This document shows, in pieces, positions 15,530 through 47,245 of a stretch of DNA of 64,000 nt. Numbering within the stretch: the first letter of the stretch is position 1; each line of letters begins with the position of its first letter. The stretch covers positions 2,415,125 through 2,479,124 of the forward strand of contig NC_012997.1 in assembly GCF_000023025.1 (NCBI RefSeq), written 5' to 3'. The notes under the pieces were generated by a model, which was not told where the DNA came from, made no database searches, and worked only from the letters and a program-made list of their open reading frames with translations. Both the position numbers and the translations under genes were made by a program. This DNA comes from Teredinibacter turnerae T7901. GTDB taxonomy: Bacteria > Pseudomonadota > Gammaproteobacteria > Pseudomonadales > Cellvibrionaceae.

Positions 15530-18500
15530 ATGGAAAAAGATATTACAAAATTAATATCGAGTTTACGAAGAAAAGGTATTGAGTTCCATTTAAATGGAGG
15601 TTCAGTAGATGTTAGGGGGCCTCTTTCCATTTTAAGTAAACAAACTATTCGATTCTTGCAGCAGAACAAAAAGGCACTCGTTGATGTGGTTTCGCAGCGA
15701 CTAAATATTTACCCAATTGCGACGACCGAACTGCAAAAAACATATTTTTATAAATGGAAGTCGGAGGTATTGAATCCCGCCTATAACTTGGTTTCCATAA
15801 CTAAGTTGTTGGCGGATGTGGATTTGGGGAAATTGCAGAATGCGGTTAATATAGTGGTTGACCGTCATTACATGCTCAGGAGTACCTTTCAAGAGAAAAA
15901 TGGCGAGCTAGTAAAAACCGTTTATCCAGAAATGCATAACTGCATCGAAATCCGCTATATAGATTGTGATGAGCAAAGTGCTTTGGTTGTAGAGTCATTT
16001 TGCGATGCACCATTTGATTTGGAAAAAGGCCCCCTGTTCAGATGTTTGGTTATACATAAAAATATTGGTGGCCAAGGGAAAACGGAAAGTGAATTTTGTC
16101 TCGTGGCACACCATATTATTATGGATTTTGTAGCCATGCAGGTCTTTACCTCTGATGTGGCAAGAGCTTATGATGATTTGTTGAAAACACCTTATAAATC
16201 TACGCTTGCTCCCGTTGAATATGATTTCGACGATACTATAGATGACAATTGTTTCACCGAAAGAACTAGAAGCCTCGATTATTGGAAGTCCCGCTTCCAA
16301 GGTAGAAAATTGGTATCTGGTATACCTTATGAAAAGCCTGCAGTACCTTCACAAGCTTATAATAAAGCATGGAAACTAAGTGATCAGTCCCTCGTGCAGC
16401 TGAACTCCTTCGCGCGAGAAAGTGGAACCACCCTATATACTTTAATTCTTTCAGTTTATTTTATCCTATCCCGATTATATACAACGGACAAATCCGCTGA
16501 CATTGTTGTTGGTGTCCCATCACTTCGGCGAAATAAGCCTAAACAACTTAAAGTAGTTGGCTCACTGGTTAATACACTGCCGATTAATATTGAAGCCGAT
16601 GCTTTTGCCTTACCGCTGGTTGAGTTCGTGAATAAAATACAGCGGTCAGTGTTTGCAGCACTGCAATATGATCAAATTGACTATCCGGATCTCGTTGCAA
16701 AGCTCCAGTTGACTAAAGCTCAAGCCGATTCGGGTCTAGTTAATACTATATTCAATTGGCATCAAATTTATGATGAAAACAAAATCTATGACCTCGAAAA
16801 ATCCTACGATGAGCAAATTCTCACCGAGGAGATCATGTCTCTTTCCAGCGGATTAAAAGGCGCTGTAACAGACCTCGTGTTTACGGTTCAAATGTTGGGC
16901 GAGGGGTTACAATTCCGAATAAACTACCGCAGCGATTTATATAGCGAAAGACGTATATCTGCGCTTGTAGATGAAACTCAGTGGTTGATAAAACACCTCT
17001 TAACACGTAGCAACGAATCTCCTAATTCTATTATTGCAAAACGACTTAGGGAAAACTTGCCTTCACTAGACTCTATGGAGAAGGCTCCCCAAACCACCGT
17101 GGTGGATGCCTTCAGAGGGTGTGTGGAAAACGCCCCGGACAGCATTGCTCTGGTGGAAGGGGAGCAACACATCAGCTTTAGCCGTTTGGATGCCTGGTCC
17201 GATGAACTGGCGGCGGTGTTACAAGCGGCGGGGTTGCAAGTGCAAGACCGCATAGGCGTATATCAACAGGCCGACAGCGCAATGATCGCGAGTGTGCTGG
17301 CCATATTAAAAATTGGCGGTGTGTATGTGCCGCTAGAGCGCGATTATCCCGCCGCCCGTTTGCAAGTGATGGCCGAAGATGCCCAACTCGCCGCCATAAT
17401 CTGCCGTGAAGAAGCTCCAGGAGAATTTTGCCCGACAATTCCACGGGTGTTCGTGGACAGTGTCAACCCCGACGAACTGCAGGGGTTGCCCTTAGAGGTT
17501 CCTGCGCTCACGGCCCAACATCCGGCTTATATCATTTACACCTCAGGTACTACGGGCGTTCCCAAAGGTGTGGTGGCGAAACACCAAGGGATTACCCGCT
17601 TAGTGTGCAACACCAATTACATCGACATACGTTCGGACGATGTATTTCTGCAGTCCACACCCATCTCATTTGACGGTGCCACCTTTGATATCTGGGGCCC
17701 GCTGTTAAATGGCGCGCGGTTGGTGTTGGCCCCCGAAATATTAAAGGACATGCACAATCTCGGGCATTATTACCAGCAGCATGGCGTTACAGTGGTGTGG
17801 CTGACCTCCGCCTTGTTCAGCACCATGGTGCGGGAACATCTTGATCGGATGTCCACGTTGCGTGTCTGTGTGGCGGGGGGCGATGTCGTTTCCTCTGAAT
17901 ATGTGCGACAGTATTTAACACGTTACCCATTTAGTCAGTTTATCAACGGTTACGGACCAACGGAAAACACGACCTTTTCAAGTTGTTATGTTATCGACGA
18001 TAGCGCCGCCGTAAAGGATGCGTTGCCCATTGGCTCCCCCATCACAGGCAGTCACTGTTATGTGCTTGACGAAGGGCTGGAACCGGTGGCCGTCGGGGTA
18101 CCAGGGGAACTTTATGTCGGTGGGCAAGGGTTGGCTTCGCACTATGAAGGGCGTGCCGGGCTAACGGCGGAAAGATTTATTCCGCATCCCTTCGCCAACA
18201 GCGGCGAGCGACTCTATCGCACCGGAGATATCGTGCGCTGGAATAGTGACGGCGCGTTAGACTTTTTAGGTCGCCGGGACGACCAAATTAAATTACGTGG
18301 TTTCCGCGTGGAGCTCGGGGAAGTTAACAGCGCGTTGGAAGCGCTGCCGGCGGTGGCGCAAAGCCACGCCGTTGTGGTGACGGACGAGCGAGACACCAAA
18401 CGCCTAGTGGCCTACGTGGCTGTTGGGTCGAGAGCCCCAATCTCTGAAGTGGGGGACGGCGCTCTTGAGGATGGAACCGTAAATGAGGACATCCTGTTAC

Positions 18501-21500
18501 AAGCCCTTAAGCAGACATTGCCCCCCTACATGGTGCCGGTGAAGCTTATATTGTTGGCGGAATTTCCACTAACGCCCAATGGCAAAGTTGACCGCCGGGC
18601 TTTACCGGAAGTGGACTTTAGTGGTCAGGTCCAAGGTTACGAAGCCCCGGCGAATCCCCTGGAAGAAACCCTGTGCCAATTGTGGTCCCGGGTATTGGGG
18701 TGTGATGAGGTCGGTCGCCACGACAACTTCTTTCAACTGGGTGGAGATTCCATCCTGGCCATCCAGATTCTCTCAGGGCTTCAAGCGCTGGGGGAGTCCT
18801 TGAGCATGCAAGCCCTTTATGAGCATCAGACCGTCGCTGCATTGGCAGACTATATCCAAGGGGGCGCGGACGAGGACTATGAAACCTTGGCCGAAGGGGA
18901 GCCGAGCTCAAGCTTACTTGTCGCGCGGGCCGTAAATAACGCCCGTCGAGAAGGCCAGTCGGGGGAAGGGGAGGCCGTCCAAACGTTGGTGGTTTGGGCG
19001 GGTGAACAAGGGGGCGACGAGGCCCATGTGGCCCCGCTAACGCCTTTGCAGCAAGGCATGTTGCACACCACTTTACACACAGAAGGCCAAGACCGTTACT
19101 GGATTCAAACCTGGTTTGAATTGCGTGGCAACCTGGACGAAGACCGTTGGCGGCAATGCTGGCAACAGGTGTGGGACAGTCACGCTATTTTGCGCAGCCG
19201 CTTTATCGATGTGTCCGCAGAGCATCCACTTCAGCTGCTTAATTGTCCTATAGCACTGCCCTGGGAAACCCTTGATTGGCAGGCCGAAGACGATATTGAG
19301 CACCACTTTAGCCAATGGCTCAATGAGCAAAAGAGCGCGATTCCCAAACCAGAGCAGGGGCCATTGGTGCGCTTTAGTGTTCTGCGGTTGTCACCACAGC
19401 ACTGGCGTTTTGTCTGGCAGTATCATCACGCCCTGTTAGATGGGTGGTCCAAATCCCTCCTGCTCGAACAAGCGATGACGGACTACCGGGACGGGGTTGG
19501 CCAGTTTACCCGCGAGGAAAATCCTCATTACGGCGACTATTTGGACTGGCTGCACAGCCGTGACATGAGTGTGGCGAAAACCTGGTGGCGAGATTATCTC
19601 AGTGACTTTGATCAGCCGGCTCGGCTGCCCCAGTTGAGCAGTAGGCGCGGTGCCGCCCGGGAAGGGTTGCTGCGGGTACCATTATCCGCCGCCACACGAG
19701 AGTCCCTGACTCGCTATAGCCAGAGCCAGGGGATCACCCTAAGCACCGTGATGCAGGGAGCCTGGGGTCTATTACTTGGTCGCTTGTGTGCCACGGCTGA
19801 CGTGGTGTTTGGTTTAACTGTGTCGGGTCGCACCGCCACGTGGCCGGGGGCCAATCATTGTGTTGGGCCGTTTATTAACACCGTGCCGGTGCGCATCCGC
19901 TGGGACAGTCACACCCCATTTACAGGGATGGTCAACCAGTTGCACCGGGATCGTTTGGCGTGTCAGCCGCACGAACTGCTCGGGTTACTCGAGATCCAAA
20001 AACAAAACGAACTGGGTGCGAATGTGGGCCTGTTTGACAGTTTGTTTGTGTTCGAAAACTACCCCTTTGACGATATTTTGCGGAGCCAGCAGATTAATGA
20101 TCTCCAGCTGGGAGCGGTGGACGGTCGCAATGCGGTGGAGTATCCCATCGTGCTTATCGTTCAACCCTTTGACGATCATTACGAACTGCAATTGTGCTTT
20201 GATGAATCACGGCTCGCCCCCGCAGAAGCCGGCCAGCTACTGGCACACTATCAATCCCTGTTACAGGCGGCGATGGAAAACCCCGAGCAATCGGCGGCGC
20301 AGCTTAACTGGCAAACCGAGGCCGATGCCGCGGCCATTGATCTGTGGAACCAAACGGCCCAGCCACTTGCCCCGCAAACCACCGTGGTGGATGCCTTCAG
20401 AGGGTGTGTGGAAAACGCCCCGGACAGCATTGCTCTGGTAGAAGGGGAGCAGCACATCAGCTTTAGCGTTTTGGATGCCTGGTCCGATGAACTGGCGGCG
20501 GTGTTACAAGCGGCGGGGTTGCAAGTGCAAGACCGCATAGGCGTATATCAACAGGCCGACAGCGCAATGATCGCGAGTGTGCTGGCCATATTAAAAATTG
20601 GCGGTGTGTATGTGCCGCTAGAGCGCGATTATCCCGCTGCCCGTTTGCAAGTGATGGCCGAAGATGCCCAACTCGCCGCCATAATCTGCCGTGAAGAAGC
20701 TCCAGGAGAATTTTGCCCGACAATTCCACGGGTGTTCGTAGACAGTGTCAACCCCGACGAACTGCAGGGGTTGCCCTATGAGGTTCCTGCGCTGACGGCC
20801 CAACATCCGGCTTATATCATTTACACCTCCGGTACTACGGGCGTTCCCAAGGGTGTGGTGGCGAAACACCAAGGGATTACCCGCTTAGTGTGCAACACCA
20901 ATTACATCGACATACGTTCGGACGATGTATTTCTGCAGTCCACACCCATCTCATTTGACGGTGCCACCTTTGATATCTGGGGCCCGCTGTTAAATGGCGC
21001 GCGGTTGGTGTTGGCCCCCGAAATATTAAAGGACATGCACAATCTCGGGCATTATTACCAGCAGCATGGCGTTACAGTGGTGTGGCTGACCTCCGCCTTG
21101 TTCAGCACCATGGTGCGGGAACATCTTGATCGGATGTCCACGTTGCGTGTCTGTGTGGCGGGGGGCGATGTCGTTTCCTCTGAATATGTGCGACAGTATT
21201 TAACACGTTACCCATCTAGCCAGTTTATCAACGGTTACGGACCAACGGAAAACACGACCTTTTCAAGTTGTTATGTTATCGACGATAGCGCCGCCGTGAA
21301 GGATGCGTTGCCCATTGGCTCCCCCATCACAGGCAGTCGCTGTTATGTGCTTGACGAAGGGCTGGAACCGGTGGCCGTCGGGGTACCAGGGGAACTTTAT
21401 GTCGGTGGGCAAGGGTTGGCTTCGCACTATGAAGGGCGTTCCGGGCTAACGGCGGAAAGATTTATTCCGCATCCCTTCGCCAACAGCGGCGAGCGACTCT

Positions 21501-24500
21501 ATCGCACCGGAGATATCGTGCGCTGGAATAGTGACGGCGCGTTAGACTTTTTAGGTCGCCGGGACGACCAAATTAAATTACGTGGTTTCCGCGTGGAGCT
21601 CGGGGAAGTTAACAGCGCATTGGAAGCGCTGCCGGCGGTGGCGCAAAGCCACGCCGTTGTGGTGACGGACGAGCGAGACACCAAACGCCTAGTGGCCTAC
21701 GTGGCTGTTGGGTCGAGAGCCCCAATCTCTGAAGTGGGGGGCGGCGCTCTTGAGGATGGAACCGTAAATGAGGACATCCTGTTACAAGCCCTTAAGCAGA
21801 CATTGCCCCCCTACATGGTGCCGGTGAAGCTTATATTGTTGGCGGAATTTCCACTAACGCCCAATGGCAAAGTTGACCGCCGGGCTTTACCGGAAGTGGA
21901 CTTTAGTGGTCAGGTCCAAGGTTACGAAGCCCCGGCGAATCCCCTGGAAGAAACCCTGTGCCAATTGTGGTCCCGGGTATTGGGGTGTGATGAGGTCGGT
22001 CGCCACGACAACTTCTTTCAACTGGGTGGAGATTCCATCCTGGCCATCCAGATTCTCTCAGGGCTTCAAGCGCTGGGGGAGTCCTTGAGCATGCAAGCCC
22101 TTTATGAGCATCAGACCGTCGCTGCATTGGCAGACTATATCCAAGGGGGCGCGGACGAGGACTATGAAACCTTGGCCGAAGGGGAGCCGAGCTCAAGCTT
22201 ACTTGTCGCGCGGGCCGTAAATAACGCCCGTCGAGAAGGCCAGTCGGGGGAAGGGGAGGCCGTCCAAACGTTGGTGGTTTGGGCGGGTGAACAAGGGGGC
22301 GACGAGGCCCATGTGGCCCCGCTAACGCCTTTGCAGCAAGGCATGTTGCACACCACTTTACACACAGAAGGCCAAGACCGTTACTGGATTCAAACCTGGT
22401 TTGAATTGCGTGGCAACCTGGACGAAGACCGTTGGCGGCAATGCTGGCAACAGGTGTGGGACAGTCACGCTATTTTGCGCAGCCGCTTTATCGATGTGTC
22501 CGCAGAGCATCCACTTCAGCTGCTTAATTGTCCTATAGCACTGCCCTGGGAAACCCTTGATTGGCAGGCCGAAGACGATATTGAGCACCACTTTAGCCAA
22601 TGGCTCAATGAGCAAAAGAGCGCGATTCCCAAACCAGAGCAGGGGCCATTGGTGCGCTTTAGTGTTCTGCGGTTGTCACCACAGCACTGGCGTTTTGTCT
22701 GGCAGTATCATCACGCCCTGTTAGATGGGTGGTCCAAATCCCTCCTGCTCGAACAAGCGATGACGGACTACCGGGACGGGGTTGGCCAGTTTACCCGCGA
22801 GGAAAATCCTCATTACGGCGACTATTTGGACTGGCTGCACAGCCGTGACATGAGTGTGGCGAAAACCTGGTGGCGAGATTATCTCAGTGACTTTGATCAG
22901 CCGGCTCGGCTGCCCCAGTTGAGCAGTAGGCGCGGTGCCGCCCGGGAAGGGTTGCTGCGGGTACCATTATCCGCCGCCACACGAGAGTCCTTGACTCGCT
23001 ATAGCCAGAGCCAGGGGATCACCCTAAGCACCGTGATGCAGGGAGCCTGGGGTCTATTACTTGGTCGCTTGTGTGCCACGGCTGACGTGGTGTTTGGTTT
23101 AACTGTGTCGGGTCGCACCGCCACGTGGCCGGGGGCCAATCATTGTGTTGGGCCGTTTATTAACACCGTGCCGGTGCGCATCCGCTGGGACAGTCACACC
23201 CCATTTACAGGGATGGTCAACCAGTTGCACCGGGATCGTTTGGCGTGTCAGCCGCACGAACTGCTCGGGTTACTCGAGATCCAAAAACAAAACGAACTGG
23301 GTGCGAATGTGGGCCTGTTTGACAGTTTGTTTGTGTTCGAAAACTACCCCTTTGACGATATTTTGCGGAGCCAGCAGATTAATGATCTCCAGCTGGGAGC
23401 GGTGGACGGTCGCAATGCGGTGGAGTATCCCATCGTGCTTATCGTTCAACCCTTTGACGATCATTACGAACTGCAATTGTGCTTTGATGAATCACGGCTC
23501 GCCCCCGCAGAAGCCGGCCAGCTACTGGCACACTATCAATCCCTGTTACAGGCGGCGATGGAAAACCCCGAGCAATCGGCGGCGCAGCTTAACTGGCAAA
23601 CCGAGGCCGATGCCGCGGCCATTGATCTGTGGAACCAAACGGCCCAGCCACTTGCCCCGCAAACCACCGTGGTGGATGCCTTCAGAGGGTGTGTGGAAAA
23701 CGCCCCGGACAGCATTGCTCTGGTAGAAGGGGAGCAGCACATCAGCTTTAGCCGTTTGGATGCCTGGTCCGATGAACTGGCGGCGGTGTTACAAGCGGCA
23801 GGGTTGCAAGTGCAAGACCGCATAGGCGTATATCAACAGGCCGACAGCGCAATGATCGCGAGTGTGCTGGCCATATTAAAAATTGGCGGTGTGTATGTGC
23901 CGCTAGAGCGCGATTATCCCGCTGCCCGTTTGCAAGTGATGGCCGAAGATGCCCAACTCGCGGCCATAATCTGCCGTGAAGAAGCTCCAGGAGAATTTTG
24001 CCCGACAATTCCACGGGTGTTCGTGGACAGTGTCAACCCCGACGAACTGCAGGGGTTGCCCTATGAGGTTCCTGCGCTGACGGCCCAGCATCCGGCTTAT
24101 ATCATTTACACCTCCGGTACTACGGGCGTTCCCAAGGGATCCATCACCACGCATGGGGGGTATCTCAACACGGCCCGTTATTACACCAAAACATGTGAAG
24201 TTAATAGGGGTTCTCGAGTGCTTCAGTTTGCTTCCATATGTTTTGATTCTTTCATGTTTGAATTCTTTCATATGTTAGTGGGGGGAGCCAGTTACATTTT
24301 ACGGCCTAGCGTTGAGCGTATTATTGGTAGCAATCTCGCTCGTTTTATTACGGTAAACCATATCACCCATGTAACCTTAACATCGTCGGTAATATCCACG
24401 TTAATTAACGAGCCTTTGCCCTCTATTGAATGGATTTTAAGTGGCGGCGAAAGCTGTAACGCCAATTTAGTCAAAGCATTCGCTGACAGATTTCATTTTA

Positions 24501-27500
24501 TTAATGCCTACGGCCCATCTGAAGCATCAATTTCAGTGTGTTCACTTGAATTTAGTCACCCACAAGAGTCGATTTCAATTGGCAGGCCCATTGATAATAC
24601 GTCGTTATACATTCTTGATGAACTATATAATCATGTGCCGGTTGGAGGAGTGGGCCAAATTGGTATTGCGGGGGCTGGCCTGGCCCATGGCTACCAAAAT
24701 AACCCACGACTAACTGCAGAAAAATTTATACCAAACCCATGGAGCACAGACGGTCAACGCTTGTATCTTTCGGGGGATTTGGGCTTTATTTGTTGTTCGG
24801 ATAGCTTGCTGCACCACGTAGGACGAATGGATAGACAAGTTAAAATCAATGGGGTTCGGGTGGAATTAGCAGAGATAGAATCTGCTTTGCGCTGTATTGA
24901 TGTCGTTAAAACTTGTTGCGTTGAAACAACGGAAGTAGGGCAAATTATCGCATTTGTTTGCTATGAAGAAACAAACATTCATCAGCGGGATAACATAAAG
25001 CAGCAACTGAGACAGCATTTGCCAGCACATATGGTGCCGGCCCATATTGTAGCGGTAGAAGAGATGCCGCTAACAGAAAATGGAAAAATAGATCTAGCAG
25101 CCTTAAATGTCCTCGCCGCTGAGTACCTTGAAAATCAGCGTCAAAATCGAGAATTCACGAGTAAAATTGCGGTTCGGATTGCCGAACTCATGGAGGGCGT
25201 TCTTAAAACAAAAAATATTACGGCAAACGATGATTTCTTTTCAATGGGAGGCCACTCGATCAGCGCCATGGAGATGGTGGCAAAACTTAATGATACTTTC
25301 TCAGTAAATATTTCGCTTGTCGATTTCTATGATATACCCAACCCAGAAGCACTCGCGGCGAAGATAAAGGGCGAAAGTATTAGCTCAAACAGCTGCCCTA
25401 CTGTGAAAAAAATCGAGCCGCGTTTTAAGCACCGGTTTGAACCCTTTCCTTTAACTGAAATACAACGCGCCTATTGGTTGGGTCGTTATCTCGGTGAGCA
25501 GGAAAAAGCCGTGTCCACCCATGGGTATTTTGAAGTGGACGTGGTTGATGCAGAATTTGATGTCAATCGTCTTGGTGAGGCATTCAAGCACACTATTAAT
25601 AAGCACGACATGATGAGAATGTGTTTGACTCGTAACGGCGAGCAGCAATGTCAACCTGAAGTTAACCATTTTTCAATAGACCTTGAAGATATATCTCAGT
25701 TCGATAGTGATGGCAAACGTGCAGTAATTGAAAAAATAAGAAATATGCTGTCACACCAAGTATTTGATGCGTTTAGCTTTCCTCTTTTTGAGGTGAGAGT
25801 GACTAAACTCGAATTGGATCGTTTTCGTTTACACTTTAGTATGGACGCCATGCTAATGGATTTTTCCAGTGTGGGGGTTTTCTTTTCAGATTTAGCCCTA
25901 GCTTATGAAACCAACGCTCCTCTGGAAAAACTGGGACTCACCTTTAGGGACTATCAAATAGCTTTTGAAGGCATGAAGCAAGAAGATGCCTACTCTCAAG
26001 CAAAAGGTTACTGGCAAGCGCGGCTAGATGGTTTGCCAGGAGCGCCGGAATTGCCGGTTATTGCCTCTAAATCCGCAGACAATCTCTTTGTGCGCAGGTC
26101 CGTCACAATACCTGCGGAACATTGGGAGACCATTCAGACCCTCGCTCGACAATTTCGCCTGACACCGACATCTTTATTACTAAGTGCCTATGTTGAAGTC
26201 ATCGCACTTTGGTCTGCCTCTGATCATTTTTGTATAAATCTTTCCCTGTTTAATCGACATGAATTGGATCCAGATATCCACAAAATAGTCGGCGATTTTA
26301 CATCGATGAATCTGACGGAATGTTGTGTGGATCGTACCAAGACGTATTTAGAGAGAATAAAAATACTTCAATATCAGCTATGGAGTGACATAGATCATCG
26401 GCTATATTCCGGTGTTGATGTGTTAAGGGATATTAACCGACAAAATGATTCTGCAAGTCGCATCAATATGCCAGTGGTATTTACCAGTGCTTTGGGCGTG
26501 GATTTTGGTATCGGCGTCGAAGAGGTACGTGGAGGCGAGTATCACATACCCACGTACAGCATCACGCAAACTTCACAGGTATGGATCGACTGCCAAGCAT
26601 ACGAAACAAATGGTAGCTGTATAGTTAATTGGGATGTTATGGAAAATATTTTTGAACCTGGCGTTCTCGATGCCATGTTCGAGTGTTTCGAAGCCCACCT
26701 GCTCCAGCTGAGTAATGACTCCATTTATAACAAACGCAAAGTTGTAGAAGCACCAGCGTCTCAGTTGGCTCAACGCGCATCTTTAGTCGAGGAGCGCTTA
26801 TATCCAATAGAACACCTTCATAAGGCCACACTAGAATCGGCTCGAGACTATCCACAAAATATAGCGTTTGTTGCGGGCGAACAGACAATTACCTATGCAG
26901 ATGTCGAAAGGTACGTTCGCTACCTGGGAATGCAATTACATAAAACTGGTTTAACAGCAAATGAGCCTGTTGCCGTTATTTTTAGGAAAGGCTGGCAACA
27001 ACATGTAGCGGCGCTTGCGGTACTTTTTGCCGGTGGTTGTTATGTTCCGATAGATGCAGACCTGCCCAGTCAAAGAATTGCAAATTATTTGGAAGAAGCG
27101 AGCATTAAGGTTGCGGTCATTTCTCCGGGGGAGAATGTCGCACAGCTACCCTTGACATCACATAATATTATTATATTTGATGAGCGAGAAACACAGGGGC
27201 AGGAAGTACTACAACAACAAATAGAGTGTGAGGTGGCAGGGCCCGCTTATATCATTTTTACCTCTGGTTCCACGGGAACCCCGAAAGGGGTTGCTGTCAG
27301 TCATCAGGCAGCTATCAATACAATATTTGATATTAATCGAATGTTTGCAGTCACCAAAGATGATGTGGTTTTTTCCATATCTGCATTTAATTTCGACCTT
27401 TCGGTTTACGACTTATTCGGTTTGATGCGGGTCGGAGGACGTATAGTGGTGCCCACCAAGTGGGAGCAAAAAGACCCTGAATCCTGGTATGCTTATTTGA

Positions 27501-30112
27501 AAAAAGAACAGGTCACTATTTGGAATAGTGTGCCGGCGTTATTTAATTTGCTGATCGATTATTTAGAATCCATCGGTGCTCAACTTCCAGTATCCCTTCG
27601 GCTAGTAATGTTAAGCGGCGATTGGATTCCCAAAGACATATCTCAACGAGCTTATAAGCTGAATCCCAATGTTAAAATTATAAGTCTTGGGGGAGCCACT
27701 GAAGCCGCTATTTGGTCTATATATTATCCAATTTCCCAGAACGAGAAATTTCCGCGTAGTATTCCTTATGGTAAGCCCCTGGCCAATCAAAACATTTATG
27801 TTATGAAACCTGATTTTACCTCCTGCCCAACTGGGGTTCCAGGTGAATTAATGATCGCAGGAGAAGGCTTGGCACTTGGCTATTGGCGGGATGAAGAAAA
27901 AACTCAACATTCCTTTGTTCACCACCCTGAAAGTGGCGAACGCCTGTATCAAACAGGCGATTATGGTCGCTATTTGCTGGACGGGAATATAGAGTTTTTA
28001 GGTCGACAAGATAAACAAATTAAGGTATCCGGCCACCGAGTTGAGCTGGGAGAAATAGAGAGTGTGTTAGATAAGCATGCACTGGTAAAAAGATCTATTG
28101 CGATATTGTCAGCGGATAAACAGTTAATTGCCTATGTGCAAATGTATAAACCCGATGACAGCACCGCGAATTTCCACGACATTTTACGCAGGCACCTGGA
28201 GAGTTACTTGCCAGACTACATGATACCTTCTTATTTTGTGTGCCTTGAGGGACTTCCTCTTAACATCAATGGAAAAGTCGACTACGGAGCATTGCCAGAA
28301 CCTGAACGGATAAAAGTCAGCGAATCTAGCGATAGTAAATATGAAGACTCCATTTTGGCAAGAATCTTTGCAGACCAGTTGAACCTAGAATCTGTATCAC
28401 CTGAAGACAATTTTTTCCAACTCGGGGGCGATTCCCTAATTGCTATTCAATGTGTCACTAAAGCGAGATCGCAAGGTTTCAGTATAAGCATAAAAGACAT
28501 TTTTGCTCAGCCAACCATTGGTGCACTAGAAGACTTCGCTCGCGGGAATGAAAACGATAACGTAAACCGCTCCGTGATTGAGCCAATGGTAGGGGCTGCG
28601 GATTCGAGTACACGGAATAACGCGCTTAAAGAAGCCGGCGGTACAGAAAATCCCTGTATTAAGGGAAGCAGCATCGAAAATTACCCTTTGTTTAGAGGCG
28701 GCCAGGAAGACCTTTATAGCTCTATAAACATCGCGCAAGAGCATTACGCCCTTAGTCCTATCGAAGACATTTATCCGATGACTGCCATTCAGCAGGAAAT
28801 GCTACTTCAGTCTAAGGTTCAGCCTGGGCGCGGTAATTACATCGTACAAACGACCTTCGAAATTCAAGATAAATCATTTGAATTCAATATATTCTATGCG
28901 GCCTGGCAAGAGATAATTAACAGGCATGCCATTCTTAGAAGTCAGTTTATCGGCGCAGATACACGATTTCCGGTGCAAATTGTACGGCAAACTGTTGCTG
29001 CCCCAGTAGAGCTAAATGATTGGACAAATAAACAGCCAGATGAACAACTATTTGAATATGAGTCATATCGATATAGTGATTGGGTAAATGGATTTGATGA
29101 AGGTATATGCGGGTTAAGTCGTGTAAAAGTGTTTAAATTTAACAATGACACATACCGTATTCTATGGACGTCTCACCACTGTATAGGCGATGGCTGGGCG
29201 CAAGCAGTGATCACTAGAGAAATGGTTGAGATATATAGCAGTATTAGTGAAAAATCCACTTATAACCTGCCCACCCCTGTTCCATTTAAACGTTATGTAT
29301 CATGGCAAGCAGAACAAGACGTGTCGTTAGCTAAAAGCTATTGGAAAAATCTCTTACAAACAGAAGTGGTTAGCAAACCACTGTTAAAAACTACTTTGAA
29401 TAGCATAGGGTTGCCTGAGCAAGGAAAACAATTTGAAGTTAGGAGAAAGCTTTCAGTTTTAAAAACAGCCAATCTCCGTGAATTAGCTAAGTCTCAGCAA
29501 TTTACTGTCAATTTGATTATACAGGCGACCTGGGCGCTAATTCTAAGTCGCTACGGTAACCAGTCTAGAGTGATATTTGGCGCTACTGCTTCTGGACGAC
29601 CGGAAACGATAGAGCAAGTTGAGCAAATTGTAGGGCCATTTCTTAATAGCTATCCAGTAGTCGCTGATCTGGATATAAATAAATCATTTATTGATCTTGC
29701 TAACATGCTCAAACGTCAGCAAATGGAAAAAGTAAAATTTGAGTATATATCGTTACGGCAGATTGCTTCTTGGGTGAAAAGTGATCAGGCGCAAAAATTG
29801 TTCTCTTCTTTAGTTATATTTAATAACTACCCTAAAGTTGATGTCCAATTGGGGCTAAAAGTTTTGCACCACGTGAGTCAAAACAATTACCCAGTAACAC
29901 TGGTAGTGTATCCATCAGAACAAATAGAGTTTGTGGTGAAATACAATGGTTTTGAGTACAAGGAAGAGCAAGCCGAGCTGTTGCTCAAACACTTTCTGGA
30001 TATGCTAGACAAAGTGATGCAGTCGCCCACAGAGGCGTTGAGTTACTTCCAGCTGGCAAATACAAGAAATAAAAGGCAAAAAAAATTAAAACTGAAAGAG
30101 CTTTCGTTGTAG
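15530..30112 (+). CDS. NRPS1: TubC-C-A-PCP-C-A-PCP-C-A-PCP-Cy-A-PCP-C, 4860 aa
   Basis: Domains by residue: TubC-type N-terminal docking domain (5-58); C1 (60-500; HHIIMDF, G of HHxxxDG replaced by F); A1 (520-1010), PCP1 (Ser near 1070), C2 (1150-1590; HHALLDG); A2 (1615-2105), PCP2, C3, an almost exact copy of the preceding 1095 residues; A3 (2710-3190), PCP3 (MGGHS near 3242); Cy4 (3300-3745) with LTEIQRAYWLGR and the cyclisation motif D-x4-D-x2-S at 3439-3447; A4 (3755-4255), PCP4 (near 4296); C5 (4410-4860; HHCIGDG), with no following A domain. Pocket codes read by eye are A1 and A2 DGFWVGGTFK (Val-like), A3 DSFTLGAISK (unassigned) and A4 DLYNMSLIWK (one change from the Cys code). Cy4 plus A4 predicts a thiazoline. 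C2 and C3 look DCL-type although no E domain precedes them. The start has GAGAG upstream. Confidence 0.95.
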   Translation: MEKDITKLISSLRRKGIEFHLNGGSVDVRGPLSILSKQTIRFLQQNKKALVDVVSQRLNIYPIATTELQKTYFYKWKSEVLNPAYNLVSITKLLADVDLGKLQNAVNIVVDRHYMLRSTFQEKNGELVKTVYPEMHNCIEIRYIDCDEQSALVVESFCDAPFDLEKGPLFRCLVIHKNIGGQGKTESEFCLVAHHIIMDFVAMQVFTSDVARAYDDLLKTPYKSTLAPVEYDFDDTIDDNCFTERTRSLDYWKSRFQGRKLVSGIPYEKPAVPSQAYNKAWKLSDQSLVQLNSFARESGTTLYTLILSVYFILSRLYTTDKSADIVVGVPSLRRNKPKQLKVVGSLVNTLPINIEADAFALPLVEFVNKIQRSVFAALQYDQIDYPDLVAKLQLTKAQADSGLVNTIFNWHQIYDENKIYDLEKSYDEQILTEEIMSLSSGLKGAVTDLVFTVQMLGEGLQFRINYRSDLYSERRISALVDETQWLIKHLLTRSNESPNSIIAKRLRENLPSLDSMEKAPQTTVVDAFRGCVENAPDSIALVEGEQHISFSRLDAWSDELAAVLQAAGLQVQDRIGVYQQADSAMIASVLAILKIGGVYVPLERDYPAARLQVMAEDAQLAAIICREEAPGEFCPTIPRVFVDSVNPDELQGLPLEVPALTAQHPAYIIYTSGTTGVPKGVVAKHQGITRLVCNTNYIDIRSDDVFLQSTPISFDGATFDIWGPLLNGARLVLAPEILKDMHNLGHYYQQHGVTVVWLTSALFSTMVREHLDRMSTLRVCVAGGDVVSSEYVRQYLTRYPFSQFINGYGPTENTTFSSCYVIDDSAAVKDALPIGSPITGSHCYVLDEGLEPVAVGVPGELYVGGQGLASHYEGRAGLTAERFIPHPFANSGERLYRTGDIVRWNSDGALDFLGRRDDQIKLRGFRVELGEVNSALEALPAVAQSHAVVVTDERDTKRLVAYVAVGSRAPISEVGDGALEDGTVNEDILLQALKQTLPPYMVPVKLILLAEFPLTPNGKVDRRALPEVDFSGQVQGYEAPANPLEETLCQLWSRVLGCDEVGRHDNFFQLGGDSILAIQILSGLQALGESLSMQALYEHQTVAALADYIQGGADEDYETLAEGEPSSSLLVARAVNNARREGQSGEGEAVQTLVVWAGEQGGDEAHVAPLTPLQQGMLHTTLHTEGQDRYWIQTWFELRGNLDEDRWRQCWQQVWDSHAILRSRFIDVSAEHPLQLLNCPIALPWETLDWQAEDDIEHHFSQWLNEQKSAIPKPEQGPLVRFSVLRLSPQHWRFVWQYHHALLDGWSKSLLLEQAMTDYRDGVGQFTREENPHYGDYLDWLHSRDMSVAKTWWRDYLSDFDQPARLPQLSSRRGAAREGLLRVPLSAATRESLTRYSQSQGITLSTVMQGAWGLLLGRLCATADVVFGLTVSGRTATWPGANHCVGPFINTVPVRIRWDSHTPFTGMVNQLHRDRLACQPHELLGLLEIQKQNELGANVGLFDSLFVFENYPFDDILRSQQINDLQLGAVDGRNAVEYPIVLIVQPFDDHYELQLCFDESRLAPAEAGQLLAHYQSLLQAAMENPEQSAAQLNWQTEADAAAIDLWNQTAQPLAPQTTVVDAFRGCVENAPDSIALVEGEQHISFSVLDAWSDELAAVLQAAGLQVQDRIGVYQQADSAMIASVLAILKIGGVYVPLERDYPAARLQVMAEDAQLAAIICREEAPGEFCPTIPRVFVDSVNPDELQGLPYEVPALTAQHPAYIIYTSGTTGVPKGVVAKHQGITRLVCNTNYIDIRSDDVFLQSTPISFDGATFDIWGPLLNGARLVLAPEILKDMHNLGHYYQQHGVTVVWLTSALFSTMVREHLDRMSTLRVCVAGGDVVSSEYVRQYLTRYPSSQFINGYGPTENTTFSSCYVIDDSAAVKDALPIGSPITGSRCYVLDEGLEPVAVGVPGELYVGGQGLASHYEGRSGLTAERFIPHPFANSGERLYRTGDIVRWNSDGALDFLGRRDDQIKLRGFRVELGEVNSALEALPAVAQSHAVVVTDERDTKRLVAYVAVGSRAPISEVGGGALEDGTVNEDILLQALKQTLPPYMVPVKLILLAEFPLTPNGKVDRRALPEVDFSGQVQGYEAPANPLEETLCQLWSRVLGCDEVGRHDNFFQLGGDSILAIQILSGLQALGESLSMQALYEHQTVAALADYIQGGADEDYETLAEGEPSSSLLVARAVNNARREGQSGEGEAVQTLVVWAGEQGGDEAHVAPLTPLQQGMLHTTLHTEGQDRYWIQTWFELRGNLDEDRWRQCWQQVWDSHAILRSRFIDVSAEHPLQLLNCPIALPWETLDWQAEDDIEHHFSQWLNEQKSAIPKPEQGPLVRFSVLRLSPQHWRFVWQYHHALLDGWSKSLLLEQAMTDYRDGVGQFTREENPHYGDYLDWLHSRDMSVAKTWWRDYLSDFDQPARLPQLSSRRGAAREGLLRVPLSAATRESLTRYSQSQGITLSTVMQGAWGLLLGRLCATADVVFGLTVSGRTATWPGANHCVGPFINTVPVRIRWDSHTPFTGMVNQLHRDRLACQPHELLGLLEIQKQNELGANVGLFDSLFVFENYPFDDILRSQQINDLQLGAVDGRNAVEYPIVLIVQPFDDHYELQLCFDESRLAPAEAGQLLAHYQSLLQAAMENPEQSAAQLNWQTEADAAAIDLWNQTAQPLAPQTTVVDAFRGCVENAPDSIALVEGEQHISFSRLDAWSDELAAVLQAAGLQVQDRIGVYQQADSAMIASVLAILKIGGVYVPLERDYPAARLQVMAEDAQLAAIICREEAPGEFCPTIPRVFVDSVNPDELQGLPYEVPALTAQHPAYIIYTSGTTGVPKGSITTHGGYLNTARYYTKTCEVNRGSRVLQFASICFDSFMFEFFHMLVGGASYILRPSVERIIGSNLARFITVNHITHVTLTSSVISTLINEPLPSIEWILSGGESCNANLVKAFADRFHFINAYGPSEASISVCSLEFSHPQESISIGRPIDNTSLYILDELYNHVPVGGVGQIGIAGAGLAHGYQNNPRLTAEKFIPNPWSTDGQRLYLSGDLGFICCSDSLLHHVGRMDRQVKINGVRVELAEIESALRCIDVVKTCCVETTEVGQIIAFVCYEETNIHQRDNIKQQLRQHLPAHMVPAHIVAVEEMPLTENGKIDLAALNVLAAEYLENQRQNREFTSKIAVRIAELMEGVLKTKNITANDDFFSMGGHSISAMEMVAKLNDTFSVNISLVDFYDIPNPEALAAKIKGESISSNSCPTVKKIEPRFKHRFEPFPLTEIQRAYWLGRYLGEQEKAVSTHGYFEVDVVDAEFDVNRLGEAFKHTINKHDMMRMCLTRNGEQQCQPEVNHFSIDLEDISQFDSDGKRAVIEKIRNMLSHQVFDAFSFPLFEVRVTKLELDRFRLHFSMDAMLMDFSSVGVFFSDLALAYETNAPLEKLGLTFRDYQIAFEGMKQEDAYSQAKGYWQARLDGLPGAPELPVIASKSADNLFVRRSVTIPAEHWETIQTLARQFRLTPTSLLLSAYVEVIALWSASDHFCINLSLFNRHELDPDIHKIVGDFTSMNLTECCVDRTKTYLERIKILQYQLWSDIDHRLYSGVDVLRDINRQNDSASRINMPVVFTSALGVDFGIGVEEVRGGEYHIPTYSITQTSQVWIDCQAYETNGSCIVNWDVMENIFEPGVLDAMFECFEAHLLQLSNDSIYNKRKVVEAPASQLAQRASLVEERLYPIEHLHKATLESARDYPQNIAFVAGEQTITYADVERYVRYLGMQLHKTGLTANEPVAVIFRKGWQQHVAALAVLFAGGCYVPIDADLPSQRIANYLEEASIKVAVISPGENVAQLPLTSHNIIIFDERETQGQEVLQQQIECEVAGPAYIIFTSGSTGTPKGVAVSHQAAINTIFDINRMFAVTKDDVVFSISAFNFDLSVYDLFGLMRVGGRIVVPTKWEQKDPESWYAYLKKEQVTIWNSVPALFNLLIDYLESIGAQLPVSLRLVMLSGDWIPKDISQRAYKLNPNVKIISLGGATEAAIWSIYYPISQNEKFPRSIPYGKPLANQNIYVMKPDFTSCPTGVPGELMIAGEGLALGYWRDEEKTQHSFVHHPESGERLYQTGDYGRYLLDGNIEFLGRQDKQIKVSGHRVELGEIESVLDKHALVKRSIAILSADKQLIAYVQMYKPDDSTANFHDILRRHLESYLPDYMIPSYFVCLEGLPLNINGKVDYGALPEPERIKVSESSDSKYEDSILARIFADQLNLESVSPEDNFFQLGGDSLIAIQCVTKARSQGFSISIKDIFAQPTIGALEDFARGNENDNVNRSVIEPMVGAADSSTRNNALKEAGGTENPCIKGSSIENYPLFRGGQEDLYSSINIAQEHYALSPIEDIYPMTAIQQEMLLQSKVQPGRGNYIVQTTFEIQDKSFEFNIFYAAWQEIINRHAILRSQFIGADTRFPVQIVRQTVAAPVELNDWTNKQPDEQLFEYESYRYSDWVNGFDEGICGLSRVKVFKFNNDTYRILWTSHHCIGDGWAQAVITREMVEIYSSISEKSTYNLPTPVPFKRYVSWQAEQDVSLAKSYWKNLLQTEVVSKPLLKTTLNSIGLPEQGKQFEVRRKLSVLKTANLRELAKSQQFTVNLIIQATWALILSRYGNQSRVIFGATASGRPETIEQVEQIVGPFLNSYPVVADLDINKSFIDLANMLKRQQMEKVKFEYISLRQIASWVKSDQAQKLFSSLVIFNNYPKVDVQLGLKVLHHVSQNNYPVTLVVYPSEQIEFVVKYNGFEYKEEQAELLLKHFLDMLDKVMQSPTEALSYFQLANTRNKRQKKLKLKELSL
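17090..20374 (+). repeat. Tandem module repeat, copy 1 (A1-PCP1-C2), 3285 bp
   Basis: First copy of a direct repeat whose period is exactly 3285 bp (1095 codons). It is measured from matching positions at 17100, 20385 and 23670. It covers the A-PCP-C unit. Comparing the translation with copy 2, I see six amino-acid differences, all in the A domain. Base composition is clearly richer in G+C than the AT-rich sequence on both sides. Confidence 0.95.
20375..23659 (+). repeat. Tandem module repeat, copy 2 (A2-PCP2-C3), 3285 bp
   Basis: Second copy, in frame and head-to-tail with copy 1. The PCP and C parts look identical at protein level to copy 1. The A domain differs at a few residues, for example RYPS for RYPF and GSRC for GSHC. 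Confidence 0.95.
23660..24138 (+). repeat. Tandem module repeat, truncated copy 3 (N-terminal part of A3), 479 bp
   Basis: Third, partial copy. Identity to copies 1 and 2 runs through the codons for SGTTGVPKG and stops at 24138. After that the A3 domain continues in frame with unrelated, AT-rich sequence. This makes A3 a chimera of two adenylation domains. Confidence 0.95.
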
Positions 30113-30125
30113 CTGGGTGAGTGAA

Positions 30126-31112
30126 ATGAGCTTGTTAAATCAATTGGATGAACATATAGATATAGATACCATACCCTATAAGGGTGGTCTTATTTCTGTA
30201 GTGTCACCTAGAAAACGTATAAATACTCAAGGTTTTTTAACTGAGTCAAAAAGTATATTGGGTGCAGTGGTGCGTCAGCAGGGGGCGTTACTTCTTCGTC
30301 GTTTTAAGTTGAATGGTGCTAAAGATTTTCTAACGGCAGTGGAAACGCTTTCAGGAAATAAGCTTTGTAACTATGAAAATAAATCCACACCAAGATCTCA
30401 AGTTATAGATAGAATTTTTACTTCAACAGAATATCCGTCCGATGCATTCATTCCCTTGCATAATGAAAATTCATACACACATACTTTTCCGCGATATTTG
30501 TATTTTTTCTGTTTGAAAAAAAGCATATCTGGCGGGGAGACACCATTAGCGAATAGTGCCTTAATACATCAAGCTCTTGATGAGAAGGTCAAAGATGAAT
30601 TTCTAGGTAAAGGCGTTCGTTATGTGAGAAATTATGGCGAGATAGATCTGCCCTGGCAGGAGGTGTTTGGTACAGATAAACCGCAGGAAGTAAGTGAATA
30701 CTGTGAAAAGCACTCCATTGATTACAAATGGAATAAAAACCAGTTGCGTACGGAAGAGTGTTGTCCTGCGTCGATACTTCACCCCGACACCAAAGAGGAT
30801 ATTTGGTTTAATCAAGCTCATCTGTTTCATTATAGTAATCTAGGAGAGGGGGCGCAGGATCTCATAAATGTGTACGGCTTGAATAATATACCGCGAAACG
30901 CACTTTTTGCAGACGGGGAAGTAATACCGAAAGGGATGTTAGATCACATCAGAGATACACTCAATGCCAATGAAATACTTTTTGATTGGCAGCCTGGCGA
31001 TTTATTGATTTTGGATAACTTAAAAATGGCCCACGGCAGAAGGCCGTTTGAAGGTCAAAGAAAAGTGTTGGTAGCAATGTCGGAAGAGTTGACTCATAGG
31101 GAATTAAATTAG
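30126..31112 (+). CDS. SyrP/TauD-family Fe(II)/2-oxoglutarate dioxygenase, probable aspartyl beta-hydroxylase
   Basis: Member of the TauD-like family close to SyrP, the enzyme that hydroxylates carrier-bound aspartate. Visible are STPRSQV, TSTEYP and the metal-binding HNEN (His-x-Glu) within IPLHNENSYTHTFP. CLKKSISGGETPLANS and the distal His in DNLKMAHGRRPFEGQRKVLV are also seen, the latter including the Arg that binds 2-oxoglutarate. The gene sits between NRPS1 and NRPS2, and both adenylation domains of NRPS2 carry Asp-type pockets, so beta-hydroxyaspartate is the likely product. ATG at 30126 is chosen; an in-frame GTG at 30117 is an alternative and neither has an ideal ribosome binding site. 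The stop is two bases before NRPS2. Confidence 0.9.
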   Translation: MSLLNQLDEHIDIDTIPYKGGLISVVSPRKRINTQGFLTESKSILGAVVRQQGALLLRRFKLNGAKDFLTAVETLSGNKLCNYENKSTPRSQVIDRIFTSTEYPSDAFIPLHNENSYTHTFPRYLYFFCLKKSISGGETPLANSALIHQALDEKVKDEFLGKGVRYVRNYGEIDLPWQEVFGTDKPQEVSEYCEKHSIDYKWNKNQLRTEECCPASILHPDTKEDIWFNQAHLFHYSNLGEGAQDLINVYGLNNIPRNALFADGEVIPKGMLDHIRDTLNANEILFDWQPGDLLILDNLKMAHGRRPFEGQRKVLVAMSEELTHRELN

Positions 31113-44200: not shown

Positions 44201-45149
44201 GTTAGGGTTTGATGTTTTAAAAGGCAGATTAGTAAGAGTAAAGGTTTATTGGTGCAAAACGCACGCATATGCAATTTTCTCATTTCATCACGCAATTATC
44301 GACGGGTGGTGTCAGAGCCTGTTTATTCAAGATTTTTGGCGGGTTTATAAAGGGGATGACAAAACCATTCCAAGGTTGATTTCATACGGTGACTATGTGG
44401 CGCGCATGAAATCCATTGCGCATAATAAAGAAGATGGTAGTAAAAGATTTTGGAAGGATCATTTGTCGGTTTTCGGGGCCTCTACAGTTTTCGCTGTAGA
44501 TGATCGTTTTTCTCGCAAAAAATCGGTTGAACCCCGCTATATCACAAAGCTTTTTCGGCCTGATCTCGTTGTGCGATTAAATCAGTTAGCAAAAACACAT
44601 CTGGTTTCTCTCCATTCTCTGTTTTTATATGCATGGGCGAAATCGCTAAGCGACTTTGAAGAGACTGATTGCGTTGATTTTTTACAAGCGGTTTCGATTA
44701 GGCCGACTACCATCAATGCAATTGATAGGTTGTTGGGTCTCTGTATAAATTTAGTGCCCAATCAAATAAAAGTTGGCAAAAAAAATAGCCTCGTTCCAGC
44801 AATCAAATCAATCGATCAATCCACCAACAAGCTTGTTCAATATGGGTATGAGGATATAGAAAAAATCCGTCAATATGCCGGGTTGCCCGCACAGTATGAA
44901 AGAAAATTATGGTCACTTTTTGTCTATCAAAACTTCCCTTCGTTGCCAGAAAATATATGCTACACACTGGTGAAGTCGCGTTGGTATTCTACACAACCTT
45001 TTACCATTATTGTATTTCCCGACGAATTACCACGTATCGAAGTGTCACATAACACAAATTTTATTGATGAAAATGCAGCAGACGGTCTGCTTGAGGATTA
45101 TATAGAGACGCTCGAGTTTATGTCGAATTTACTTACACTAAACAAGTGA
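41244..45149 (+). CDS. NRPS3: half C-A-PCP-C, 1301 aa
   Basis: The start is GTG at 41244 with GAGGAG (41231-41236) in front. Residues 30-280 are only the C-terminal lobe of a condensation domain (from YWKHYLLDIP through FVQVGISYV-like strands); the lobe with HHxxxDG is missing. A7 (290-800) has TSGSTGLPKG near 453 and the pocket DASTIAAVCK, which is like aromatic-activating (Phe/Tyr) pockets. PCP7 is LGGDS near 837. C8 (870-1295) has an intact HHAIIDG near 1014. No A domain, reductase or thioesterase follows C8. It may be a terminal releasing condensation domain, or it may hand over to an enzyme outside this gene. The stop overlaps the following methyltransferase start (GTGA). Confidence 0.93.
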   Translation: MKQDDNWSASEHPLYGENKSERHLMDVGQEIKKNERYWKHYLLDIPDIHNLSLDGARTGKIKSQYASIQCSINKRLTRLINIACDHYNVNALIYLETVFSILIARFSSSKDIVVGARDVNKFDKINSEQSMGFIPLRSQFSSELTFEELLLDSQSSYLRSLSHIRIPLNSLLQVTETSDTLHAHPVFQVGISYVTVKEHDVSLNNSRGVQLSYDNDCLSLDILLTIYNKQDVLQCEWHFDAQLFNESTVKRKAESFLLLLEDSLLAPEKNVNKLNIIPDNDLRLLKKWNNTSKRASEHERCYVYELFEEQASLTPDNIAILDSFRCVSYRELNQRSNQLAHHLLAEGLGSGERIGIFIDQSFEYIVAILSALKTHCTYIPIDPKLPEERIRYLLSDAEIKYVLTTGSESLLPLTIQQCCRFSVDDRLYQQYPETNVDLEHNTGSEFPAYVIYTSGSTGLPKGVIVTHRSLLNLAFYKRATFGLNSSDCVIQFASVGFDAAVSEWLMALSIGARLSVISPGRKIDIDQFADHMANTGVTCATLPPIFLQTYPLERLKKLKTLIVAGEQFPPQLANSIREMLPEVRLFNAYGPTEGTVCSTCYKVESEMKKSVPIGKPIENVQCFVLNECSKMQPVGAFGELCIAGENLAAGYSNDTLTNDKFTIVTIQSTQILIYRTGDLVRWLPDGNLEYGGRIDDQIKIHGVRIEPREIEYQLSRHELIKDSCVVSRSMSKAEHARALVAYVVLNNQKTVFDNVLQDDIISFLKQRLPEYMVPAVITNIPRIPQTNNGKLDKQKLPDIFGEAITPNTDFQRLLYNIWKDTLGITGFSITDNFFALGGDSIKAQIFLIALNKHGYEIPLDEFYRKPTIEGCAGIYRAGGGLPDVYQECLRFKATNLQSKMLFQSLTSQHKAINIEQFALKIDSYNKHQLLATLEKLASIHSLLRATISIAKTGIYFSTENTAIIDCGFLPLSEKFDLDDAMSTDAELGFDVLKGRLVRVKVYWCKTHAYAIFSFHHAIIDGWCQSLFIQDFWRVYKGDDKTIPRLISYGDYVARMKSIAHNKEDGSKRFWKDHLSVFGASTVFAVDDRFSRKKSVEPRYITKLFRPDLVVRLNQLAKTHLVSLHSLFLYAWAKSLSDFEETDCVDFLQAVSIRPTTINAIDRLLGLCINLVPNQIKVGKKNSLVPAIKSIDQSTNKLVQYGYEDIEKIRQYAGLPAQYERKLWSLFVYQNFPSLPENICYTLVKSRWYSTQPFTIIVFPDELPRIEVSHNTNFIDENAADGLLEDYIETLEFMSNLLTLNK

Positions 45150-45928
45150 AACATTTTATGGATTTGGGAATATATACTGAGTCTGCAGATATCTATGATG
45201 ACTTTGAGTTGAGGGGAAAGGGTACCTCTGACATAACAAATCAAAAAATTATAAATATACTAGAAAAAAATTCTGTTAAAACCGTGCTCGATATGAGTTG
45301 CGGTACAGGTGCTCAAGCTATCGCGTTGGCTCGTCATGGGTTTGATGTGACTGCTAGTGACTTGAGTCGCGAGATGATAGAAATAACCAAAACAAAATCT
45401 AAAGGCTTGGCTATCCAATTCAATGTTGGGGATATGCAGTATTTGGATCTGGGTAAGTTCGATGCTGTAATAAGTATGTTTAACTCTATCGGGCATCTCA
45501 CGAAAGAGCAGCTGTTTAAAACACTTGTTAATGCTAAAAATAATCTTAGCAAAAACGGATTGCTTATTTTTGATATTTTTAACAGAGATGTTATGCCATT
45601 GCTCCCGAGGCATAAGTTTATTGATCAGGCGAGGGAAGAAGGTAATCAATTTTTAATTAGATTTACACAGTTTGATTTTAGCCGCCCTGAGGGGATACTT
45701 AACACCAAGCAAACTCTTTTAATTCAAAAAGGTATAGGGAAAACAAAAACTATTAATCGAGAATACGATTTGCTTACGTATAAAAGAAAGGAACTGAAGT
45801 TTATGCTTGGCGAGGCCGGATATCACAATGTCCATATTTCGGATCATGGTTTGGCAGATTTTGCGGATTTAGAGAATCCATTAGTAAACATGCTAATGCA
45901 TTTAGTCGTAGCAGTTAAGCTGGATTAA
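45146..45928 (+). CDS. Class I SAM-dependent methyltransferase
   Basis: Protein of about 260 aa with clear motif I VLDMSCGTGAQAIALA (near residue 48), the acidic residue after strand 2 in VTASDLS, GDMQYLDL, and motif IV FDAVISMFNSIGHL. These are typical of small-molecule methyltransferases (Methyltransf_25/11 type). GTG at 45146 overlaps the NRPS3 stop; ATG at 45158 is an alternative. Coupling to NRPS3 suggests it acts on the product, for N-, O- or C-methylation; the position cannot be predicted. Confidence 0.9.
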   Translation: MKHFMDLGIYTESADIYDDFELRGKGTSDITNQKIINILEKNSVKTVLDMSCGTGAQAIALARHGFDVTASDLSREMIEITKTKSKGLAIQFNVGDMQYLDLGKFDAVISMFNSIGHLTKEQLFKTLVNAKNNLSKNGLLIFDIFNRDVMPLLPRHKFIDQAREEGNQFLIRFTQFDFSRPEGILNTKQTLLIQKGIGKTKTINREYDLLTYKRKELKFMLGEAGYHNVHISDHGLADFADLENPLVNMLMHLVVAVKLD

Positions 45929-47196: not shown

Positions 47197-47245
47197 TAAA
47201 ACTAATTTTAGATAGCCTGTTACCTGAATAGCGCGGGATAAAGAA

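Follow-up and report, generated by a model that had tools for sequence, protein, structure and literature searches.

As reported, nonribosomal peptide synthetase (NRPS) and polyketide synthase (PKS) clusters undergo concerted evolution, in which internal recombination makes the domains of one cluster more alike than orthologues (Medema et al. 2014, PMC4256081); the cases treated there include the calcium-dependent lipopeptides, syringopeptin, and the rapamycin family. In this study, we analyzed a GC-rich tandem block of NRPS modules in a 64,000-nucleotide stretch of the Teredinibacter turnerae T7901 genome (the window; contig NC_012997.1, positions 2,415,125 to 2,479,124, forward strand). The block is best explained, with a probability of roughly 0.64, by paralogous modules homogenized through gene conversion that favors G/C. 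It has homogenized modules in common with the published cases; what PMC4256081 describes for them is homogenization, whereas here the base composition also changes, and this change is confined to the homogenized stretch.

A second class of comparable elements is GRINS (genetic repeats of intense nucleotide skews), long repeats in assembly-line genes that have been tied to gene conversion and abnormal base composition (PMC9899208, PMC10394414). GRINS are defined by GC and TA skew, with a cut-off of 0.15 in PMC9899208 and of 25% in PMC10394414, and the latter describes them as rare in proteobacterial PKSs. With a repeat of 3770 bp at 99.3% identity, the block agrees with the repeat part of the GRINS definition (at least 500 bp, more than 80% identity, same cluster). 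Its mean absolute skews, however, are 0.091 and 0.089, against 0.12 and 0.09 in the flanks, and its anomaly lies in GC content. We therefore rejected the block as a GRINS, since the skew is not raised.

The G/C preference of gene conversion in bacteria is disputed. Such a bias has been proposed on the basis that recombining genes have higher GC, mostly at third codon positions (Lassalle et al. 2015, PMC4450053), and doubted elsewhere (PMC8153448); an AT-biased report is cited by PMC8223754. The contrast drawn in PMC4450053 is between gene averages, recombining versus non-recombining, whereas the steps described below, of 0.10-0.16, occur within single genes at repeat edges. Regarding recombination of NRPS adenylation (A) domains, core motifs have been proposed as exchange boundaries, with A3-A9 exchanges in microcystin synthetase (PMC8097286). 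Those exchanges swap the pocket part, whereas in the block the sequence preceding the A3 motif is common to the modules and the pocket differs. A literature search for GC-biased gene conversion in NRPS repeats or bacterial gene families, judged by title and the start of the abstract and with subscription papers mostly outside it, found none on topic.

The block lies in a gene whose Pfam order of condensation (C), adenylation, and peptidyl carrier protein (PCP) domains is C-[A-PCP-C]x2-A-PCP-C(Cy-like)-A-PCP-C, Cy denoting cyclization. At an offset of 3285 bp, self-identity reaches 61% over 15-26 kb, compared with 23-26% for 29 other offsets tested. Homology begins at 17090 (last mismatch at 17089) and ends at 24138, giving 2.15 in-frame copies with an exact 3285-bp period; offset and edge mapping thus bear out what the preliminary description of this DNA had read from the letters. 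Its estimate of about six residue differences between the full units was also accurate, as 19 of 3285 sites and 6 residues distinguish copy 1 from copy 2. The block is the single listed repeat above 80% identity in the self-comparison of the window, and its remaining matches in the genome are no longer than 114 bp. The features are as follows.

15530 to 30112, plus strand: NRPS gene, 4860 amino acids, C-[A-PCP-C]x2-A-PCP-Cy-A-PCP-C (open reading frame list, Pfam)
15722 to 17017, plus strand: first condensation domain (PF00668), unrepeated; the gene part upstream of the block has GC 0.40 (Pfam, GC)
17090 to 24138, plus strand: GC-rich tandem block, 2.15 copies, period 3285 bp (self-comparison, GC)
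17100 to 20384, plus strand: copy 1, A-PCP-C unit, beginning in the C-A linker
20385 to 23669, plus strand: copy 2, A-PCP-C unit, 19 differences from copy 1
23670 to 24138, plus strand: partial copy 3, the N-terminal portion of A domain 3; its end falls in YTSGTTGxPKG, which we take to be the A3 core motif
23693 to 24694, plus strand: hybrid third A domain, GC-rich shared start and its own AT-rich remainder (domain search, GC)
25445 to 26719, plus strand: condensation/cyclization-like domain downstream of the block, unrepeated (Pfam on two fragments)
26834 to 27886, plus strand: fourth A domain, GC at third codon positions (GC3) 0.374, unrepeated

The third A domain is a hybrid, because the array ends within its A3 motif. 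The in-frame tandem amplification is predicted to place two successive identical residues in the product, as had been proposed. The pocket letters DGFWVGGTFK of the preliminary description agree with our own reading by eye; they presumably specify a Val-like residue. The Cy domain was assigned from a DxxxxDxxS motif read by eye, which we take to be the cyclization signature, and the fourth A domain and the Cy domain presumably correspond to Cys and thiazoline formation.

The three block copies have GC contents of 0.561, 0.562, and 0.567, compared with 0.400 upstream and 0.435 and 0.424 downstream, in agreement with the preliminary description that the block is richer in GC than the first C domain and the A3/Cy/A4 sequence. 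GC3 is 0.59-0.62 in the copies versus 0.375-0.404 in the flanks. On the left, the GC change point falls at 17077, with a 2-log-unit interval (17035-17098) that includes the repeat edge. In a rotation test, the true placement alone of 1280 reached the GC of the block. Moreover, the repeated A domains of the window have a GC3 of 0.59-0.60 compared with at most 0.467 in 6 unrepeated A domains, and the repeated C domains reach 0.63 compared with at most 0.454 in 4. The published GC content of the T. turnerae T7901 genome is 50.8% (PMC2699552), and the whole NRPS cluster is AT-rich relative to it.

The closest relative of the cluster is found in G004, the nearest species in the comparison set, which matches almost the whole window in three segments, with identities of 92.1, 93.1, and 87.4% to the source genome (G000). 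The largest aligned cluster piece, 41 kb, is 93.1% identical, and the rpoB region is 94.7% identical. T. turnerae has been described as two clades about 0.92 alike (PMC7329324), and G004 presumably represents the other clade. It carries the identical 2.15-copy layout and junctions, which does not support the recent gain proposed in the preliminary description. An assembly artefact with a wrong copy number would be suggested by the near-identity of the copies and by nothing else; two single-contig assemblies share the 2.15 copies, with different between-copy differences, and we consider this explanation negligible.

Over the four full copies, two per genome, 44 sites show the pattern aabb (alike within and different between genomes), none abab, and 1 abba, while 42 changes are private to one copy and 1 site has three states. 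Within a genome, the copies differ at 19 (G000) and 26 (G004) sites, compared with 60-74 between genomes; correspondingly, the synonymous divergence (dS) is 0.014 and 0.025 between copies and 0.057-0.069 between genomes. Thus, as in described concerted evolution, the copies are more alike within than between genomes and the layout is the same in both. The preliminary description had named relatives with the same architecture and equal divergence between copies as evidence against it; the architecture is indeed shared with G004, whereas the divergence is not equal, the copies being homogenized within each genome. The block is an established tandem NRPS module pair kept near-identical by recombination between its copies, through conversion or array turnover. 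The aabb sites would also arise without gene conversion if the ancestor had 1.15 units and each lineage independently gained the extra unit through unequal crossing-over between the two 469-bp A-domain starts. The junctions would then always be identical and few differences would be expected within a genome, as observed. However, the copy differences are clumped rather than even, as their largest gap was equalled in only 38 of 20000 shuffles for G000 and 7 of 20000 for G004, and a non-tandem repeat in the same genome (locus 2, below) has the same aabb pattern, which cannot arise in this manner. Independent duplication is therefore rather unlikely.

The dS between G000 and G004 is 0.064 in the block, compared with 0.14 upstream and 0.24 and 0.17 downstream in the gene. 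Low divergence also extends over most of 30-38.5 kb and over 24.14-24.6 kb of the window; we read these stretches as exchange between the two lineages, with nothing particular to the block. The latter stretch was probably exchanged along with the block.

24139 to 24600, plus strand: low-divergence stretch relative to G004 past the repeat (0-1.5% per 200 bp)

Between 30100 and 38500 of the window, divergence from G004 is 0.6-4% per 500 bp (9.4% in one bin), compared with 4-10% before and 6-20% after. From these alignments, the window cluster has the appearance of a mosaic assembled through segment exchange.

An ancestral import could also account for the composition of the block. One or more foreign GC-rich modules would have entered at the C-A linker and the A3 motif before the species split and been homogenized later, the GC content being that of the donor. 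The sharp GC steps at both array ends and the AT-rich cluster (relative to 50.8% for the genome) are in keeping with it. However, no donor appeared in the collections searched, and the preliminary claim of a foreign module thus finds no match. Among plasmids, there was no near match at the DNA level, and 2734 matching records at the protein level were all below 60%. In 41 loci of the genome_contigs collection, the best segment had 29-39% identity by a pattern scan, which detects close relatives only. Furthermore, among 369 sampled genomes of the class, a match at E<=1e-160 occurred in one, the source genome itself. Apart from G004, neither flank has a cluster relative among 390 sampled genomes of the order, and the right flank has none among 8 genomes of the genus, in which G005 shows one 39% match to a part. 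In the six other congeners, the parts of the gene used as queries had no long match. With G004 as the sole cluster relative found in these genomes, there is no empty site for comparison. At the window locus, import followed by homogenization is possible, though we judge it the improbable course; a second locus is where import explains the GC step poorly.

This second NRPS cluster (locus 2) lies about 84 kb downstream of the window block and contains a direct repeat of 6456 bp with copies 4.8 kb apart.

G000:C1:2522943-2529398 and 2534240-2540695: locus-2 NRPS repeat copies in two neighboring genes, about 108-126 kb past the window start

The copies differ by 1 mismatch in G000 and 37 in G004, with 83 aabb, 0 abab, and 0 abba sites. 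Both copies have a GC of 0.644; the surrounding DNA and the 4.8 kb between them have 0.47-0.49. Each of the four GC change points falls within the repeat, 43-73 bp from its edge, and the 2-log-unit intervals include the edges. In addition, G702, a genome of another family in the same order, has a cluster colinear with locus 2 that includes this two-copy repeat; its copies are 91.9% alike, and their GC is 0.607 and 0.610 versus 0.55-0.56 outside. The nucleotide alignment of G000 and G702 crosses two of the locus-2 repeat edges at about 67%. In codon alignment, amino-acid identity is 0.63 in the repeats and 0.57 outside. Two of the four edges are covered by this alignment. Across edge one, identity goes from 0.59 within the repeat to 0.54 beyond it (400 codons each) while the GC3 of G000 falls from 0.81 to 0.48; at edge two, it is 0.73 and 0.63 (400 codons each) while GC3 falls from 0.77 to 0.47. 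Import thus leaves unaccounted for GC-rich parts that are colinear with the cluster of another family and that occur twice, apart from each other but with identical edges.

Four-fold degenerate sites of G000 and G702 are 0.32 identical outside the repeats (chance 0.265) and 0.506 identical inside (chance 0.368), that is, near saturation outside and heavily turned over inside. The GC content at these sites (GC4) is 0.864 in the repeats and 0.548 outside for G000, and 0.839 and 0.762 for G702. Given this turnover, the composition of locus 2 can hardly be the memory of an old import, and its GC would be kept up by some process; judging from these alignments, the GC excess seems to be maintained in place rather than being an import relic. 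Polarized by G702, substitutions yield an equilibrium GC of 0.57 in the repeats and 0.40 outside. Changes from A/T to G/C (W>S) account for 20/48 and 21/49 in the two copies, compared with 0.27 from the flank rates (p 0.02 and 0.01), although the copies are near-duplicate data and the outgroup is near saturation, which makes this balance supportive rather than decisive. An in-frame stop is reported in the locus-2 orthologue at G702:C1:2111159-2113594, where the frames split.

To place these two loci among other repeats, we surveyed repeats of at least 400 bp and at least 88% identity. The sample was non-random: stretches came from NRPS-module search matches, some chosen for suspected repeats or very long genes. 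A 220-bp match in G486 and a 68.9% match near 2.07 Mb fell under the limits and were excluded, and none of the 41 genome_contigs loci (mostly Streptomyces) had a repeat above them. Besides the window and locus 2, three repeats of the genus are needed for the comparison.

G000:C1:3162376-3163559 and 3191429-3192612: two copies of an 1184-bp A-domain repeat (97.7%) separated by 29 kb, within NRPS genes at 3.16-3.19 Mb
G000:C1:3175853-3188689: tandem duplication with a period of 5696 bp, not a multiple of 3 and spanning gene ends
G003:C1:1757545-1765830: NRPS array in the congener G003, 2.57 copies of a 3219-bp unit

The 1184-bp repeat has a GC of 0.556 compared with 0.40-0.46 around it. The G003 array, in a cluster with a GC of 0.47, reaches 0.59, compared with 0.489 and 0.451 in the adjacent DNA, and the other 1-kb windows of 100 kb lie at 0.35-0.52. 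Counting the true placement, the repeat GC was reached by 2/1155 rotation placements for locus 2, 2/1195 for the 1184-bp repeat, 1/1991 for G003, and 557/1195 for the 5696-bp tandem. Among 11 repeat families, a GC step of at least 0.10 occurs in 4 (window, locus 2, 1184-bp repeat, and G003), and the G702 counterpart of locus 2 has a step of 0.05. A smaller rise over the flanks occurs in G591, G575, G180, and the 5696-bp tandem (~0.01), and there is none in G759, G672, and G284, all with a cluster GC above 0.60. Recombining DNA is thus GC-richer than matched non-recombining DNA at the window and locus 2, as GC-biased conversion predicts, but this is not general (4/11 families). The association of GC with repeats in two further cases, the 1184-bp repeat and G003, is likewise left unexplained by import.

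At the surveyed loci, the GC3 of repeated A and C domains exceeds that of the unrepeated domains of the same type found there; in this comparison, the unrepeated group includes both A domains from the fresh 5696-bp duplication, with a GC3 of 0.379. This domain control excludes an inherent GC richness of A domains as the cause for the window, locus 2, the 1184-bp repeat, and G003. Codon optimization is also unlikely, because the rpoB-preferred codons GTT and GGT are rarer in repeats than in flanks; the preferred CGT is rarer at locus 2 as well (0.10 in the repeats versus 0.32).

The examined edges fall at conserved motifs, namely the C-A linker and A3 at the window, the C1 motif and A3 at locus 2, the A-domain start and A8 for the 1184-bp repeat, and an A9-like motif and the A-domain start for G003. 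On the preferred reading of G/C-favoring conversion between modules, the A-domain starts of neighboring modules, from the C-A linker to the A3 motif, would be made alike by conversion. Alike starts would permit unequal crossing-over, by which the A-PCP-C unit might be duplicated and extra modules gained in register. Conversion would run between conserved motifs and halt in the third A domain at its A3 motif, possibly because the pocket downstream must remain distinct. Mismatches in the recombining DNA would be resolved toward G/C, so that repeats would gain GC up to their edges while unrepeated neighbors stay AT-rich. We infer this G/C bias, and locus 2 is the single place that supports it directly.

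Several observations weigh against this reading. The right GC change point lies at 24178 (24153-24193), 15-55 bp past the repeat edge, an apparent overhang that import explains more easily. Single-copy private changes in the window block run toward A/T, with 28 from G/C to A/T (S>W) and 10 in the reverse direction; amelioration of imported DNA would do likewise, although mutation is expected to produce such changes under either reading. At edge two of locus 2, identity to G702 drops outward from 0.735 to 0.505 over 200 codons. The window locus has no outgroup, so its GC history is not directly seen. Moreover, the strong GC step is confined to this genus, being weak or absent in the other 7 families, and in G591, repeated A and C domains show no higher GC than the single unrepeated domain of each type found there. 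CGT is an exception to the codon argument, as at the window locus it is no rarer in the repeats (0.24) than outside them (0.19). Finally, the genome contains an NRPS gene that is GC-rich but has no repeat (G000:C1:4497000-4506500, at 4.50 Mb, GC 0.58-0.63). This gene equally opposes a reversed cause, in which stretches that are already GC-rich recombine more readily and stay homogenized while their AT-rich neighbors diverge. GC and homogenization would coincide in either case. However, the silent sites of locus 2 have turned over nearly fully outside and heavily inside the repeats while the contrast endures, and a fresh perfect duplication is not GC-rich (below); we regard the reversed cause as very unlikely.

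Repeated and unrepeated stretches of one gene share replication, expression, host, and most selection, and GC steps at repeat edges therefore provide an internal control, which between-gene comparisons lack. Such steps at homogenized repeats may offer a natural test of a G/C preference in bacterial DNA copying. The odds are, in our view, slightly better than even that recombination between modules favors G/C strongly enough to raise sharp GC islands inside single genes, altering silent and protein-level composition, which would be a direct showing of GC-biased gene conversion in a bacterium. In addition, high GC in one module of an AT-rich synthetase does not have to mean foreign origin, although it invites that first reading, and homogenized domain starts that feed unequal crossing-over suggest a route of assembly-line growth.

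In the 5696-bp tandem, the fresh part has 0 differences in 4251 bp and a GC of 0.447, with flanks at 0.468 and 0.457, while a three-copy C-domain part has 4-10 differences per 1445 bp and a GC of 0.50; that the older part is the GC-richer one supports the preferred reading. The tandem looks like an old homogenized domain repeat that recently let the whole stretch duplicate, which would represent a very recent module gain. The background stretch G000:C1:5000000-5010000 has a GC of 0.38, well below the other eight sampled (0.47-0.54). Within the window, likely tailoring enzymes include a P450 (11942-13183), a TauD-like oxygenase (30117-31112), and, downstream of the NRPS genes, a methyltransferase (45146-45928) and two radical-SAM-like genes (45997-49141), the second of which is just below the Pfam cut-off.

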